Of a stretch of 64,000 bases of DNA, positions 13,801 to 63,500 are shown one piece after another; position 1 is the first letter of the stretch, and the number at the start of each line of letters is the position of its first letter. A model generated the notes under the pieces. It searched no databases. It had not been told where the DNA came from and saw nothing but the letters and a program-made list of their open reading frames with translations. Source of the stretch: Arenicola marina (Eukaryota > Annelida > Polychaeta > Arenicolidae); the NCBI GenBank assembly GCA_964019135.1, contig OZ025252.1, positions 9,998,823-10,062,822 of the forward strand. The letters are read 5' to 3'. The translations under genes and the position numbers were made by a program.

Positions 13801-16800
13801 TGCAAATTACGTCTTTAAATGTTTAAAAGCTGTTCATTGATTCTCATTCAGCGTCTGTATGTTGAGTAATGTGCATATTCCATCACCTCACTCGCGTGTT
13901 TTCTTGTTTCCAGTCACCCCGCACACGCGGTGCCGCCTGAAGCAGCTGAAGATGGAGCGGATCAAGGATTACCTGCTGATGGAGGAGGAGTTCATCAAGA
14001 ACCAGGAACGCCTGAAGCCACAAGAGGAGAAGCAGGAGGAGGAGCGCTCCAAGGTGGACGACCTGCGGGGGACGCCCATGTCTGTCGGCAATCTGGAGGA
14101 GATCATTGACGACAACCACGCCATCGTCTCCACGTCAGTCGGCAGCGAGCACTACGTCAGCATCCTCTCCTTCGTCGACAAGGACCAGCTGGAGCCTGGC
14201 TGCTCAGTGCTCCTCAACCACAAGGTGTGTCTCTCTCGGTGCTCCTCAACCACAAGGTGTGTATCTCTCGGTGCTCCTCAACCACAAGGTGTGTATCTCT
14301 CGGTGCTCCTCAACCACAAGGTGTGTATCTCTCGGTGCTCCTCAACCACAAGGTGTGTATCTCTCGGTGCTCCTCAACCACAAGGTGTGTGTCTCGGTGC
14401 TCCTCAACCACAAGGTGTGTGTCTCTCGGTGCTCCTCAACCACAAGGTGTGTCTCTCGGTGTTCCTCAACCACAAGGTGTGTATCTCTCGGTGCTCCTCA
14501 ACCACAAGGTGTGTATCGCTCGGTGCTCCTCAACCACAAGGTGTGTCTCTCGGTGCTCCTCAGCCACAAGGTGTGTATCTCTCGGTGCTCCTCAGCCACA
14601 AGGTGTGTATCTCTCGGTGCTCCTCAACCACAAGGTGTATCTCTCGGTGCTCCTCAACCACAAGGTGTGTATCTCTCGGTGCTCCTCAACCACAAGGTGC
14701 GTATCTCTTGGTGCTCCTCAGCCACAAGGTGTGTGTCTCTCGGTGCTCCTCAACCACAAGGTGTGTATCTCTCGGTGCTCCTCAACCACAAGGTGTGTGT
14801 CTCTCGGTGCTCCTCAACCACAAGGTGTGTGTCTCGGTGCTCCTCAACCACAAGGTGTGTATCTCTCGGTGCTCCTCAACCACAAGGTGTGTATCTCTCG
14901 GTGCTCCTCAACCACAAGGTGTGTGTTTCTCGGTGCTCCTCAACCACAAGGTGTGTATCTCTCGGTGCTCCTCAACCACAAGGTGTGTATCTCTCGGTGC
15001 TCCTCAACCACAAGGTGTGTGTCTCGGTGCTCCTCAACCACAAGGTGTGTATCTCTCGGTGTTCCTCAACCACAAGGTGTGTATCTCTCAGTGCTCCTCA
15101 ACCACAAGGTGCGTATCTCTCGGTGTTCCTCAACCACAAGGTGTGTATCTCTCGGTGCTCCTCAACCACAAGGTGTGTATCTCTCGGTGCTCCTCAACCA
15201 CAAGGTGTGTATCTCTCGGTGCTCCTCAACCACAAGGTGTGTATCTCTCAGTGCTCCTCAACCACAAGGTGTGTATCTCTCGGTGCTCCTCAACCACAAA
15301 GTGTGTGTCTCTCGGTGCTCCTCAACCACAAGGTGTGTGTCTCTCGGTGCTCCTCAACCACAAGGTGTGTCTCTCGGTGTTCCTCAACCACAAGGTGTGT
15401 ATCTCTCGGTGCTCCTCAACCACAAGGTGTGTATCTCTCGGTGCTCCTCAACCACAAGGTGTGTATCTCTCGGTGCTCCTCAACCACAAGGTGCGTATCT
15501 CTTGGTGCTCCTCAGCCACAAGGTGTGTGTCTCTCGGTGCTCCTCAACCACAAGGTGTGTATCTCTCGGTGCTCCTCAACCACAAGGTGTGTGTCTCGGT
15601 GCTCCTCAACCACAAGGTGTGTGTCTCGGTGCTCCTCAACCACAAGGTGTGTATCTCTCGGTGTTCCTCAACCACAAGGTGTGTATCTCTCGGTGCTCCT
15701 CAACCACAAGGTGTGTATCTCTCTGTGCTCCTCAACCACAAGGTGTGTATCTCTCGGTGCTCCTCAACCACAAGGTGTGTGTCTCTCGGTGCTCCTCAAC
15801 CACAAGGTGTGTATCTCTCGGTGCTCCTCAACCACAAGGTGTGTATCGCTCGGTGTTCCTCAACCACAAGGTGTGTATCTCTCGGTGTTCCTCAACCACA
15901 AGGTGTGTATCTCTCGGTGCTCCTCAACCACAAGGTGTGTATCTCTCGGTGCTCGTCAACCACAAGGTGTGTCGCTCTCGGTGTTCCTCAACCACAAGGT
16001 GTGTATCTCTCGGTGCTCCTCAACCACAAGGTGTGTATCTCTCGGTGTTCCTCAACCACAAGGTGTGTATCTCTCGGTGCTCCTCAACCACAAGGTGTGT
16101 ATCTCTCGGTGCTCCTCAACCACAAGGTGTGTATCGCTCGGTGCTCCTCAACCACAAGGTGTGTATCTCTCGGTGCTCCTCAGCCACAAGGTGTGTATCT
16201 CTCGGTGCTCCTCAACCACAAGGTGTGTATCTCTCGGTGTTCCTCAACCACAAGGTGTGTGTCTCGGTGCTCCTCAACCACAAGGTGTGTCTCTCGGTGC
16301 TCCTCAACCACAAGGTGTGTATCTCTCGGTGCTCCTCAACCACAAGGTGTGTATCTCTCGGTGCTCCTCAACCACAAGGTGTGTATCTCTCGGTGCTCCT
16401 CAACCACAAGGTGTGTATCTCTCGGTGCTCCTCAACCACAAGGTGTGTATCTCTCGGTGCTCCTCAACCACAAGGTGTGTATCTCTCGGTGCTCCTCAAC
16501 CACAAGGTGTGTATCTCTCGGTGCTCCTCAACCACAAGGTGTGTATCTCTCGGTGCTCCTCAACCACAAGGTGTGTGTCTCGGTGCTCCTCAACCACAAG
16601 GTGTGTCTCTCGGTGCTCCTCAACCACAAGGTGTGTATCTCTCGGTGCTCCTCAACCACAAGGTGTGTATCGCTCGGTGCTCCTCAACCACAAGGTGTGT
16701 GTCTCTCGGTGCTCCTCAACCACAAGGTGTGTATCTCTCGGTGCTCCTCAACCACAAGGTGTGTGTCTCGGTGCTCCTCAACCACAAGGTGTGTCTCTCG

Positions 16801-60500: not shown

Positions 60501-63500
60501 GTGAAGAGCCCGGAGCACATGGACAATTAGGGGGCTGGTACCGGTGAAGAGCCCGGAGCACATGGACAATTAGGGGGCTGGTATCGGTGAAGAGCCCGGA
60601 GCACATGGACAATTAGGGGGCTGGTACCGGTGAAGAGCCCGGAGCACATGGACAATTAGGGGGCTGGTACCGGTGAAGAGCCCGGAGCACATGGACAATT
60701 AGGGGGCTGGTACCGGTGAAGAGCCCGGAGCACATGGACAATTAGGGGGCTGGTATCGGTGAAGAGCCCGGAGCACATGGACAATTAGGGGGCTGGTACC
60801 GGTGAAGAGCCCGGAGCACATGGACAATTAGGGGGCTGGTACCGGTGAAGAGCCCGGAGCACATGGACAATTAGGGGGCTGGTACCGGTGAAGAGCCCGG
60901 AGCACATGGACAATTAGGGGGCTGGTATCGGTGAAGAGCCCGGAGCACAGGGTCAATTAGGGGGCTGGTACCGGTGAAGAGCCCGGAGCACATGGACAAT
61001 TAGGGGGCTGGTATCGGTGAAGAGCCCGGAGCACATGGACAATTAGGGGGCTGGTACCGGTGAAGAGCCCGGAGCACAGGGACAATTAGGGGGCTGGTAC
61101 CGGTGAAGAGCCCGGAGCACATGGACAATTAGGGGGCTGGTACCGGTGAAGAGCCCGGAGCACATGGACAATTAGGGGGCTGGTACCGGTGAAGAGCCCG
61201 GAGCACATGGACAATTAGGGGGCTGGTACCGGTGAAGAGCCTGGAGCACATGGACAATTAGGGGGCTGGTACCGGTGAAGAGCCTGGAGCACATGGACAA
61301 TTAGGGGGCTGGTACCGGTGAAGAGCCCGGAGCACATGGACAATTAGGGGGCTGGTATCGGTGAAGAGCCCGGAGCACATGGACAATTAGGGGGCTGGTA
61401 CCGGTGAAGAGCCCGGAGCACATGGACAATTAGGGGGCTGGTACCGGTGAAGAGCCCGGAGCACATGGACAATTAGGGGGCTGGTATCGGTGAAGAGCCC
61501 GGAGCACATGGACAATTAGGGGGCTGGTACCGGTGAAGAGCCCGGAGCACATGGACAATTAGGGGGCTGGTACCGGTGAAGAGCCCGGAGCACATGGACA
61601 ATTAGGGGGCTGGTACCGGTGAAGAGCCCGGAGCACATGGACAATTAGGGGGCTGGTACCGGTGAAGAGCCCGGAGCACATGGACAATTAGGGGGCTGGT
61701 ATCGGTGAAGAGCCCGGAGCACAGGGACAATTAGGGGGCTGGTACCGGTGAAGAGCCCGGAGCACATGGAAAATTAGGGGGCTGGTATCGGTGAAGAGCC
61801 CGGAGCACATGGACAATTAGGGGGCTGGTATCGGTGAAGAGCCCGGAGCACATGGACAATTAGGGGGCTGGTATCGGTGAAGAGCCCGGAGCACATGGAC
61901 AATTAGGGGGCTGGTACCGGTGAAGAGCCCGGAGCACATGGACAATTAGGGGGCTGGTACCGGTGAAGAGCCCGGAGCACATGGACAATTAGGGGGCTGG
62001 TATCGGTGAAGAGCCCGGAGCACATGGACAATTAGGGGGCTGGTACCGGTGAAGAGCCCGGAGCACATGGACAATTAGGGGGCTGGTACCGGTGAAGAGC
62101 CCGGAGCACATGGACAATTAGGGGGCTGGTACCGGTGAAGAGCCCGGAGCACATGGACAATTAGGGGGCTGGTATCGGTGAAGAGCCCGGAGCACAGGGA
62201 CAGTTAAAGAGCTGGTATCGGTGAAGCGTCCGGAGCACAGGGACAGTTAAAGGGCTGGTATCGGTGAAGCGTCCGGAGCACAGGGACAGTTAAAGGGCTG
62301 GTATCGGTGAAGCGTCCGGAGCACAGGGACAGTTAAAGGGCTGGTATCGGTGAAGCGTCCGGAGCACAGGGACAGTTAAAGGGCTGGTATCGGTGAAGCG
62401 TCCGGAGCACAGGGACAGTTAAAGGGCTGGTATCGGTGAAGAGCCCGGAGCACAGGGACAGTTAAAGGGCTGGTACCGGTGAAGCGCCCGGAGCACAGCG
62501 CTAGGATGTCGTCCTGCGAGGCGTCCTGTTGGCTGGACGGGTCCAACATCAAGCTCCGTCGAGCCGCCTTCTTGTCGCTTAACTGTGTCTTCAGCAAGCT
62601 ACAAAAATAAGACAACGACCTGTCAGACAGAAGCAGCATATGGGCAAGGCCAACAAGATAGGCCAACAAGATAGGTATGTACCAGGCGCTAGATTACGGA
62701 GGCAAGTAAAATGGTGACATATTTAAACCCACTGGCTGTGAACTTTTACAAATACACAAGGTTTGCACAAATACACAAGGATTGCACAAATACACAAGAT
62801 TTGCTCAAATATACAACGATTGCCCAAATAAACAAGAATTGCACAAATACAAAATTAATTGCATGAATATATAAGAATTGCACAAATACACAAGAATTGC
62901 ATGAATATATAAGAATTGCACAAATACACAAGAATTGCACAAACACACAAGAATTGCACAAATATACAAGGATTGCATAAATAAACAAGAATTGCACAAA
63001 CACACAAAAAATGCATAAATATATAAGAATTGCACAAACATAAAAGAATTTCACAACTGATTATTATTTACCTTTGTCATATTGAGGGATTCATTTTATT
63101 TTCAGAACAAGTTCATAACGAGGCTGCGTGTACCTGTCGGCGTCCATGAGCTGTGACGGGGTCGTGTCCTCGGCCATGACGCCTGACCGGAAGCCCCCGC
63201 TGTGGGTCACGTGGGGGGTGTCCCCCAGCTGGGAGAGCGACGGACTGCGGCAGGAGAGGAGGTCCAGGGAGTCGTCTGCAGGCAGCGCCAGGCCGGACAA
63301 GCTGCTGCCGGACTGCAAACCACAAACACTCATTCTGAACATAAATCCCAATTGGATTACACCTTCAAATATCAATTTCTGCCCCTTTTCACCACATCTT
63401 TTGAATGAACCTTTTGGCAGTCACCAGAGTGAAATTTACATAATCTGTAGCTTCAATGGACCCATAGAAAAATATCAGGGATTTATTGATTATAATTAAA

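Follow-up and report, generated by a model that had tools for sequence, protein, structure and literature searches.

Mirage-like minisatellites at the exon edges of PSMC1 and CLSPN in Arenicola marina

Ten long tandem arrays lie at exon–intron junctions of two neighbouring, convergent genes, PSMC1 and CLSPN, within the window analysed here, a 64,000-nt stretch of Arenicola marina contig OZ025252.1 (Table 1). With a probability of roughly 0.75, these arrays are mirage-type minisatellites, in which a coding-edge segment was tandemly duplicated and the array was expanded and homogenised on the non-coding side, the outermost copy being the real exon end. Recomputation of arrays and exon models confirmed every one of the ten arrays and junction coordinates listed by an initial annotation of the sequence. 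The arrays measure 569 to 17,686 bp and sum to 39.5 kb versus 3.2 kb of coding exon, in agreement with the earlier estimate of about 39 kb against roughly 3.2 kb. Classical minisatellites have units of about 10–100 bp in arrays of 0.5–30 kb, and by these customary size limits all ten qualify (units of 23–75 bp, 0.57–17.7 kb, 14 to about 700 copies). Nested TRF rows of one array were merged by hand, and TRF item 59150–59182 is coding and falls outside the intronic array count.

Neither gene model uses any array copy: the human subunit aligned to PSMC1 without gaps over residues 1–440, and the CLSPN frame is open across its 14 exons. Judged on its sequence, the CLSPN product is claspin, and a Pfam family search with a piece of claspin found none. 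No CLSPN start codon was identified in the window, and the 5' end therefore probably lies beyond its right edge. Frame logic in CLSPN also led to an exon at 54430–54387 whose donor bears another short array, which supports the mirage reading. While its ten arrays stand, the initial annotation had omitted this exon, its donor array (54303–54387) and two arrays over stop codons. Scans of the window against Rfam and for tRNAs found nothing. The window also holds a SINE-like element; a 24-mer from it matched no viral or prokaryote contigs, and the element itself matched no phages.

Table 1 Genes, the added exon and tandem arrays in the window.
Feature	Coordinates	Strand	Description	Splice dinucleotide kept
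PSMC1 (26S proteasome ATPase Rpt2)	7885..26225	+	11 coding exons, 440 aa intact	
CLSPN (claspin)	27406..63903	-	14 exons in window, one open frame to stop	
CLSPN exon	54387..54430	-	44 nt; mends reading frame between exons 54816-54728 and 51965-51833	
PSMC1 donor array, exon 13914-14224	14203..18560	+	32-bp unit, about 137 copies; 22 exonic nt (SVLLNHK) + GTGTGT donor	GT in 136/137 copies
PSMC1 donor array, exon 20668-20768	20772..21340	+	40-bp unit, 14 copies; from intron +4; no exonic bases	
PSMC1 donor array, exon 21696-21905	21892..23328	+	about 55-bp unit, 26 copies; 14 exonic nt + donor	
PSMC1 acceptor array, exon 26091-26225	23392..26114	+	67-bp unit, about 41 copies; acceptor + 24 exonic nt (AICTEAGL)	AG in 41/41 copies
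Array spanning PSMC1 stop codon	26213..26280	+	23 bp x 3	
Array spanning CLSPN stop codon	27326..27428	-	37 bp x 2.8	
CLSPN donor-side array, exon 33309-33179	28890..33155	-	23-bp unit, 186 copies; begins 23 nt into intron; no exonic bases	
CLSPN donor array, exon 51965-51833	34140..51825	-	25-bp unit, about 700 copies; 7 nt into intron; no exonic bases	
CLSPN acceptor array, exon 51965-51833	51963..53976	-	56-bp unit, 36 copies; acceptor + 3 exonic nt	AG in 36/36 copies
Degenerate CLSPN array	54005..54244	-	34 bp x 7	
CLSPN donor array (eleventh junction array), exon 54430-54387	54303..54387	-	35-bp unit x 2.4; last exonic base into intron	
CLSPN acceptor array, exon 54816-54728	54826..56941	-	40-bp unit, 53 copies; 9 nt from exon; no exonic bases	
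CLSPN donor array, exon 58714-58579	57059..58611	-	75-bp unit, about 21 copies; 33 exonic nt (28/33 match) + donor	GT in 17/22 copies
CLSPN donor array, exon 62598-62477	59769..62497	-	43-bp unit, about 63 copies; 21 exonic nt + donor	GT in 40/63 copies

With the added donor array, eleven arrays lie at junctions (eight at donors and three at acceptors), and three introns carry arrays at both ends. Six arrays overlap the coding exon by 3–33 nt, the outermost copy being the exon end in each, as the mirage reading would have it. Five of these contain 22, 14, 24, 33 and 21 exonic nt per unit and the sixth contains 3; an earlier count of at least five such arrays and a further one with 3 nt thus holds, with the range of 14–36 nt corrected to 14–33 nt. 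Conversely, exonic bases are absent from four of the eleven and number just one in a fifth, which weighs against this reading. The 9-mer AAGGTGTGT is identical in 112 of the 137 copies of the PSMC1 donor array 14203–18560, and array 21892–23328 holds exact GACATCAAGGT 19 times, counting the authentic one.

Position was assessed with distance limits of 10 and 25 nt that were set after the data had been seen: of the intronic arrays of at least 500 bp (n = 10), nine are no more than 10 nt from a junction and all ten no more than 25 nt. Nine within 10 nt compares with 1.98 expected under random placement in the array-free sequence of the same intron (P = 1.3e-6) and with 0.47 over all introns (P = 1e-11), which bears out the earlier view that chance placement is implausible. 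For all intronic arrays under the same limits, 10/19 fall within 10 nt (P = 1.5e-4 within-intron, 3e-9 over all introns) and 11/19 within 25 nt (P = 0.045 and 1e-6). At 50 nt the within-intron test fades (10/10, P = 0.027; 14/19, P = 0.24), to the detriment of the mirage reading, and the all-intron test holds (P = 2e-7 and 2e-6, respectively).

A process acting on junctions as such, which the initial annotation had proposed, is not borne out. Eight of the 19 intronic arrays lie more than 25 nt from any junction (a point against the mirage reading too), stop codons share the same geometry, and the 11 junction arrays, a group that includes 54303–54387, exceed the other eight in length (Mann–Whitney P = 8e-4) and in GC content (P = 0.007). 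For these reasons, tolerance at coding edges combined with composition is a rival account, in which GC-rich exon sequence would make GC-rich units that expand, the edges being where duplication does no harm. We regard this as a real possibility, short of even odds: it would explain the differences in length and GC content, but array 28890–33155 is very long at 45% GC, exonic bases are absent from four long arrays, and 54303–54387 sits on a donor despite its 25% GC.

The arrays of purely intronic units bear on a second rival, a mutational hot spot, in which a feature of the junction (polymerase pausing, RNA–DNA hybrids or the exon nucleosome edge) would break or stall DNA and seed duplications regardless of selection. 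Long arrays without exonic bases nevertheless lie 3–9 nt (three arrays) and 23 nt (the fourth) from a junction, and the eleventh array includes one exonic base only; tolerance alone would not place purely intronic units there. The global enrichment at junctions is also strong. However, the geometry is repeated at the two stop codons, where there is no splicing, and no clear duplication was seen at the other junction sides tested. For a route through R-loops the strand bias is inconsistent, with the coding strand G-rich in 2/10 arrays, C-rich in 5/10 and |skew| <0.1 in 3/10. A hot spot stays a tentative explanation, plausible but not the one we favour.

That short arrays also cover the two stop codons suggests the coding edge, rather than splicing itself, as the target. 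Under the favoured mirage-type explanation, a short segment straddling or touching a coding edge (mostly a splice site, twice a stop codon) would be tandemly duplicated, and the array would expand and homogenise on the non-coding side by slippage, unequal exchange or conversion, while the outermost copy remained the real exon end. Splicing at that copy would keep the duplication nearly neutral and allow it to reach kilobase size. Duplications within coding sequence would be purged and those at edges would survive, carrying expansion-prone GC-rich sequence, such that long arrays gather at edges.

We infer that the outermost copy is the site used in splicing, because a complete protein requires it. 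Use of inner copies would break the PSMC1 frame for 90 of the 134 exact-match inner donors of 14203–18560, for all 38 inner acceptors of 23392–26114 and for 10 of the 18 inner donors of 21892–23328, and these counts support the mirage reading. At odds with it, the inner donor type AAGGTGGGT of 21892–23328 scores 9.8 against 7.1 for the authentic AAGGTAACC, on a score with assumed frequencies. The locus thus offers a natural experiment in splice-site choice: one PSMC1 intron presents about 137 near-identical donors, of which the first is needed if the protein is to be complete, and another presents 41 acceptors, of which the last is needed on the same condition. A broader proposition, which we consider rather unlikely, is that in this lineage the coding edge is itself a genome-wide hot spot for the start of tandem duplications, with exon-edge repeat making up most of the length of introns, and that the outermost of up to 137 near-identical sites is taken reliably, so that a rule of position and not site sequence decides.

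The term mirages was reportedly coined by Canestro in 2002. In the portions of PMC3087553 and PMC3902484 drawn on here, amphioxus 'mirage' minisatellites are described in Adh3, the globins BflGb6 and BflGb9, troponin C and PGBD5 as tandem units of 10 to about 160 bp over exon–intron boundaries, 5' or 3', with duplicated splice signals and seemingly undisturbed splicing. The idea of an exon-edge repeat is thus not new, and the amphioxus parallel that had been suggested is matched in layout by those portions: here the unit lies over the exon–intron boundary in 6/10 long arrays (the other four lie 3–23 nt away), arrays occur at both 5' and 3' exon boundaries, and AG/GT signals are duplicated in the units of the six exon-bearing arrays. 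By contrast, the copy number of 14 to about 700 per long array compares with 3–6 (BflGb6) and 2–7 (PGBD5) in the same portions of the two papers, and here there are several arrays per gene, at both intron ends and at stop codons too. With 136 intact donors in one array and three introns bearing arrays at both ends, the scale exceeds that of the mirages described there; the PSMC1 and CLSPN arrays look like an extreme case of mirages. Length polymorphism and somatic instability count among the traits of mirages as well; the window represents one haplotype.

In the eight introns with long arrays, the non-array remainder is just 63–409 bp, which points to a route to large introns without transposons. 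Growth of these introns via tandem duplication of exon-edge sequence, as originally proposed, is supported. As far as the consulted part of PMC3443670 describes it, intron gain under the AGGT model also involves tandem duplication of exon sequence with AG/GT; unlike in that model, introns here pre-exist and only lengthen, and no single duplication supplied both donor and acceptor. That the arrays are young introns born from duplicated exon is most improbable: their units do hold AG/GT sites and exon sequence, but donor and acceptor occur in one array in none of the eight introns, which shows that the arrays enlarged existing introns and argues against intron birth, and the units are unrelated in both introns with long arrays at two ends. 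Polyubiquitin (UBC) likewise has several tandem splice-site-like AGGT units in its dual-specific splice-site arrays, although those are coding and stochastically spliced in the text considered from PMC10809524, whereas no array copy is needed here for a complete protein. Long intronic minisatellites, for example in earthworm metallothionein intron 1 (10–19 kb), are likewise kilobase tandem arrays, but in the part of PMC12783039 consulted no exon-edge units are reported, unlike here.

Human PSMC1 conserves the residues copied into the three exon-bearing PSMC1 arrays, so the exon was the source there and the array the copy; we infer the same direction for CLSPN. The ten units, already described as unrelated, show no mutual match with E below 0.09 (the best are 9–14 nt), which tells against a mobile minisatellite taken up by exons or an artefact of assembly, as do the several unit variants within each array and the fact that the exon-derived stretches of the PSMC1 arrays are conserved coding sequence. 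Assemblies can get the size of an array wrong when it approaches or exceeds read length, and the 17.7-kb array is in that range; as an account of the arrays, artefact or capture is nonetheless very remote.

Copies within an array are alike (identity to unit 0.89–0.99). In 23392–26114 and 59769–62497 the exon copy is unlike all others: the A of the exon's GGAGGCAGGACTG is missing from all 40 array copies, and there is a single occurrence of the 15-mer CCGGGCGCTTCACCG. Homogeneous arrays with a distinct exon copy, as in these two, are what concerted evolution with the cluster boundary excluded, a trait of mirages, would produce. Against this, the exon variant is not private in 14203–18560, where CTCAGTGCTCC occurs three times, two of them in array copies. 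Copies nearer the exon were further from the array consensus in 8/10 arrays by sign (nominal P <0.05 in 4/8), with the trend significantly reversed in one array; end effects also explain such divergence. Outward growth polarity was rejected, as identity to the exon-edge copy dropped significantly with distance in only 1/10 arrays, the poly-C-rich 21892–23328.

At array ends, a search for microhomology at the first duplication gave partial copies of 4–8 nt (AGCA, ACACCT, CTCGGTG) in some, and whole copies or decayed ends in others. When 44 junction sides, a set without the two sides of exon 54430–54387, were searched for decayed mirages, five scored 29–43, all known exon-bearing arrays, and the other 39 scored at most 18 (null maxima 14–25). 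Three non-array sides (scores 18, 18 and 16) exceeded their own small nulls and were taken as noise. With no clear duplication at these 39 sides, few early stages have been caught, contrary to what the mirage reading would favour. A recombination signature was rejected as general: in an exon set without the 44-nt exon, GC3 climbs towards arrays in PSMC1 (rho -0.28) but shows no such trend in CLSPN (rho 0.06), and no difference in GC3 separates exons that touch arrays from the others (P = 0.30). As a sign of selection, exon-derived positions in the six arrays were less variable than intron-derived ones in 4/6 and more variable in 2/6, none significantly, and gave no sign of function.

The degenerate array 54005–54244 has a unit that resembles that of 54303–54387 (score 33, with 0/1000 shuffles as high); the two may be one array, of which 54005–54244 would be an older part. 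By eye, the donor of exon 33309–33179 resembles the unit of 28890–33155 at 10/12 bases.

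Tandem Repeats Finder identified ten long arrays in the introns of PSMC1 (26S proteasome ATPase) and CLSPN (claspin), together spanning 39,451 bp against 3,158 bp of coding exon in the window, in agreement with the ~39 kb and ~3.2 kb of the initial annotation. Its placement of all ten on exon borders was confirmed and slightly extended, as an eleventh array was found at the donor of CLSPN exon 54430-54387, which its gene model lacked. Exon overlap was measured by wraparound alignment of each array against its own unit, begun 120 bases outside the array. Exonic bases, claimed at 14–36 in at least five units, were found in five arrays over a range of 14–33 nt, and the unit said to hold 3 exonic bases plus an acceptor was recovered as described. 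For the array that starts furthest into its intron, 28890-33155, the donor GTACGTTCGCAG is similar by eye to the unit GTACGTCCCCAG. The unit of an array deeper in the intron (54005-54244) is related to that of the eleventh array (score 33; shuffle mean 12.3, with 0 of 1000 shuffles scoring as high).

Tandem arrays in the window
Array	Description	Coding-exon overlap (wraparound alignment)	Position
14203-18560	long, PSMC1 donor	22 nt	
20772-21340	long	no exonic bases	3 nt off junction
21892-23328	long	14 nt	
23392-26114	long, acceptor	24 nt	
28890-33155	long	no exonic bases	starts 23 nt into intron
34140-51825	long	no exonic bases	7 nt off junction
51963-53976	long, acceptor	3 nt	
54826-56941	long	no exonic bases	9 nt off junction
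57059-58611	long	33 nt	
59769-62497	long	21 nt	
54303-54387	35 bp x 2.4, donor	last exonic base	exon 54430-54387
54005-54244	34-bp unit		deeper in intron
26213-26280	23 bp x 3		PSMC1 stop codon
27326-27428	37 bp x 2.8		CLSPN stop codon
547-1156	93-bp unit		intergenic

These borders rest on gene models for two convergent genes. PSMC1 (+ strand) is complete, with 440 aa, 11 coding exons and GT-AG at 10/10 introns, and its product aligns with residues 1-440 of human 26S proteasome subunit 4 with zero gaps (E 3.4e-268). CLSPN (- strand) is represented by its last exons only; a query made of two of these exons plus the end of another matched claspin at E 1.3e-26. The additional 44-nt exon at 54430-54387 was located from a mismatch in phase between exons 54816-54728 and 51965-51833; with it, the 14 exons maintain an open frame down to the stop codon. 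Claspin residues 1043-1152 aligned across this exon at 80.5 bits; the score was 72.2 bits, not strictly comparable, for a longer query in which X stood for the exon. In the corrected model, 23 introns total 51,681 bp and contain 19 arrays. GC3 of the PSMC1 exons (11320-26225) ranged from 0.33 to 0.90 and was higher close to arrays, a pattern not seen for CLSPN.

The check proposed initially, of array-to-splice-site distance against random placement, was run within the window, with each array placed randomly in what its own intron holds outside arrays (within-intron null) or over all introns pooled (global null). Among arrays of at least 500 bp, all ten lay within 25 nt of an exon-intron junction and nine within 10 nt (expected 1.98, P 1.3e-6, within-intron; expected 0.47, P 1e-11, global). 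For all intronic arrays, the 10-nt limit took in 10/19 (P 1.5e-4 and 3e-9, respectively) and the 25-nt limit 11/19 (P 0.045 and 1e-6), both limits having been set post hoc, after inspection of the data. At 50 nt, the global null gave P 2e-7 for long arrays and 2e-6 for all 19; the within-intron test was weak (P 0.027 and 0.24) because scant non-array sequence remains in array-bearing introns. The eight arrays more than 25 nt from a junction were all short (29–350 bp), and junction arrays were longer (P 8e-4) and of higher GC (P 0.007) than these.

Each of the six long arrays that carry exonic bases has the real exon end as its outermost copy. The exonic part of the PSMC1 units encodes residues conserved in the human protein, so in these arrays the exon is the source and copying ran from exon to array. 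For CLSPN, the geometry suggests the same source. Array copies were homogeneous (0.89–0.99 identity to the unit), and in two arrays the exon copy was unlike all others: the A of the exonic GGAGGCAGGACTG was found in 0/40 array copies, and CCGGGCGCTTCACCG occurred once, in the exon copy of its array. The exon variant CTCAGTGCTCC of array 14203-18560 occurred three times and hence is not private to the exon. Together, copy homogeneity and distinct exon copies fit tandem-repeat homogenisation.

The copied GT or AG was intact in 136/137, 41/41, 36/36, 17/22 and 40/63 copies of five arrays. Nine donor-flanking bases were identical in 112/137 copies of array 14203-18560, and GACATCAAGGT occurred exactly 19 times in 21892-23328, counting the real site. 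Among exact-match sites, use of an inner site would keep the PSMC1 frame in 44/134, 0/38 and 8/18 cases across the three exon-bearing arrays. A complete protein requires the outermost site every time, and we infer that splicing takes this site in the cell.

Arrays of ~3 copies also lie at both stop codons, where, with the geometry seen at junctions, the unit joins coding end to non-coding sequence and the first copy is in use. This argues that the shared factor is the coding edge, where duplication spares the reading frame, rather than splicing. The suggestion of a process acting on junctions has the strong enrichment there in its favour and the stop codons against it, and the greater length and higher GC of junction arrays suit a rival, tolerance at coding edges plus composition. 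Long arrays that carry no exonic sequence yet border the junction count against a purely selective filter, by which duplications are tolerated at coding edges. A hot spot and tolerance combined with composition are not separable from 64 kb.

Outside their arrays, the eight long-array introns retain 63–409 bp, so the length of an intron here is essentially that of its arrays. The initial interpretation is partly right: the proposed growth of introns by tandem duplication at the exon edge is supported. In none of the eight are donor and acceptor inside one array, which argues against intron birth from arrays, and in introns with arrays at both ends (21906-26090, 51966-54386, 54817-58578) the two units differ. 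The introns seem to predate their arrays.

Tandem repeats across exon-intron boundaries were reportedly named 'mirages' by Canestro (2002, as relayed by citing papers) in amphioxus Adh3. The arrays here share this layout with lancelet genes. Mirages are described at 5' and 3' boundaries of two amphioxus globin genes, one with 6 and 3 units in its two haplotypes, with concerted evolution, regular RT-PCR products and a proposal of intron gain (PMC3087553), and in lancelet PGBD5 (2-7 and 3-6 units), where troponin C is also cited (PMC3902484). The phenomenon is thus already in print for lancelets; the scale here exceeds the unit counts of these two papers, and no splice-site arrays of such size were found in the literature covered, chiefly non-subscription papers.

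Other repeats were also observed. One dispersed repeat (33310-33502, - strand, and 20346-20539; 79% identical) is flush with the CLSPN exon starting at 33309, so that its acceptor TTTCCCTTCAG appears to be repeat-derived, possibly a transposon-derived splice site. Introns of both genes hold a SINE-like element (19227-19480 and 59454-59707; 90.6% identical) whose head looks tRNA-like by eye; the element was absent from the phages searched, and a 24-mer taken from it had no match in the searched viral and prokaryote contigs. The unit of intergenic array 547-1156 reappears by eye as a single reversed piece at ~5985-6035, so a dispersed element may have seeded the array. A 160-bp inverted pair (5295-5454 and 5819-5978; 96.9% identical, ~365 bp between) looks like a young mobile element, and a PSMC1 intron holds a MITE-like, 245-bp imperfect palindrome (13460-13704).
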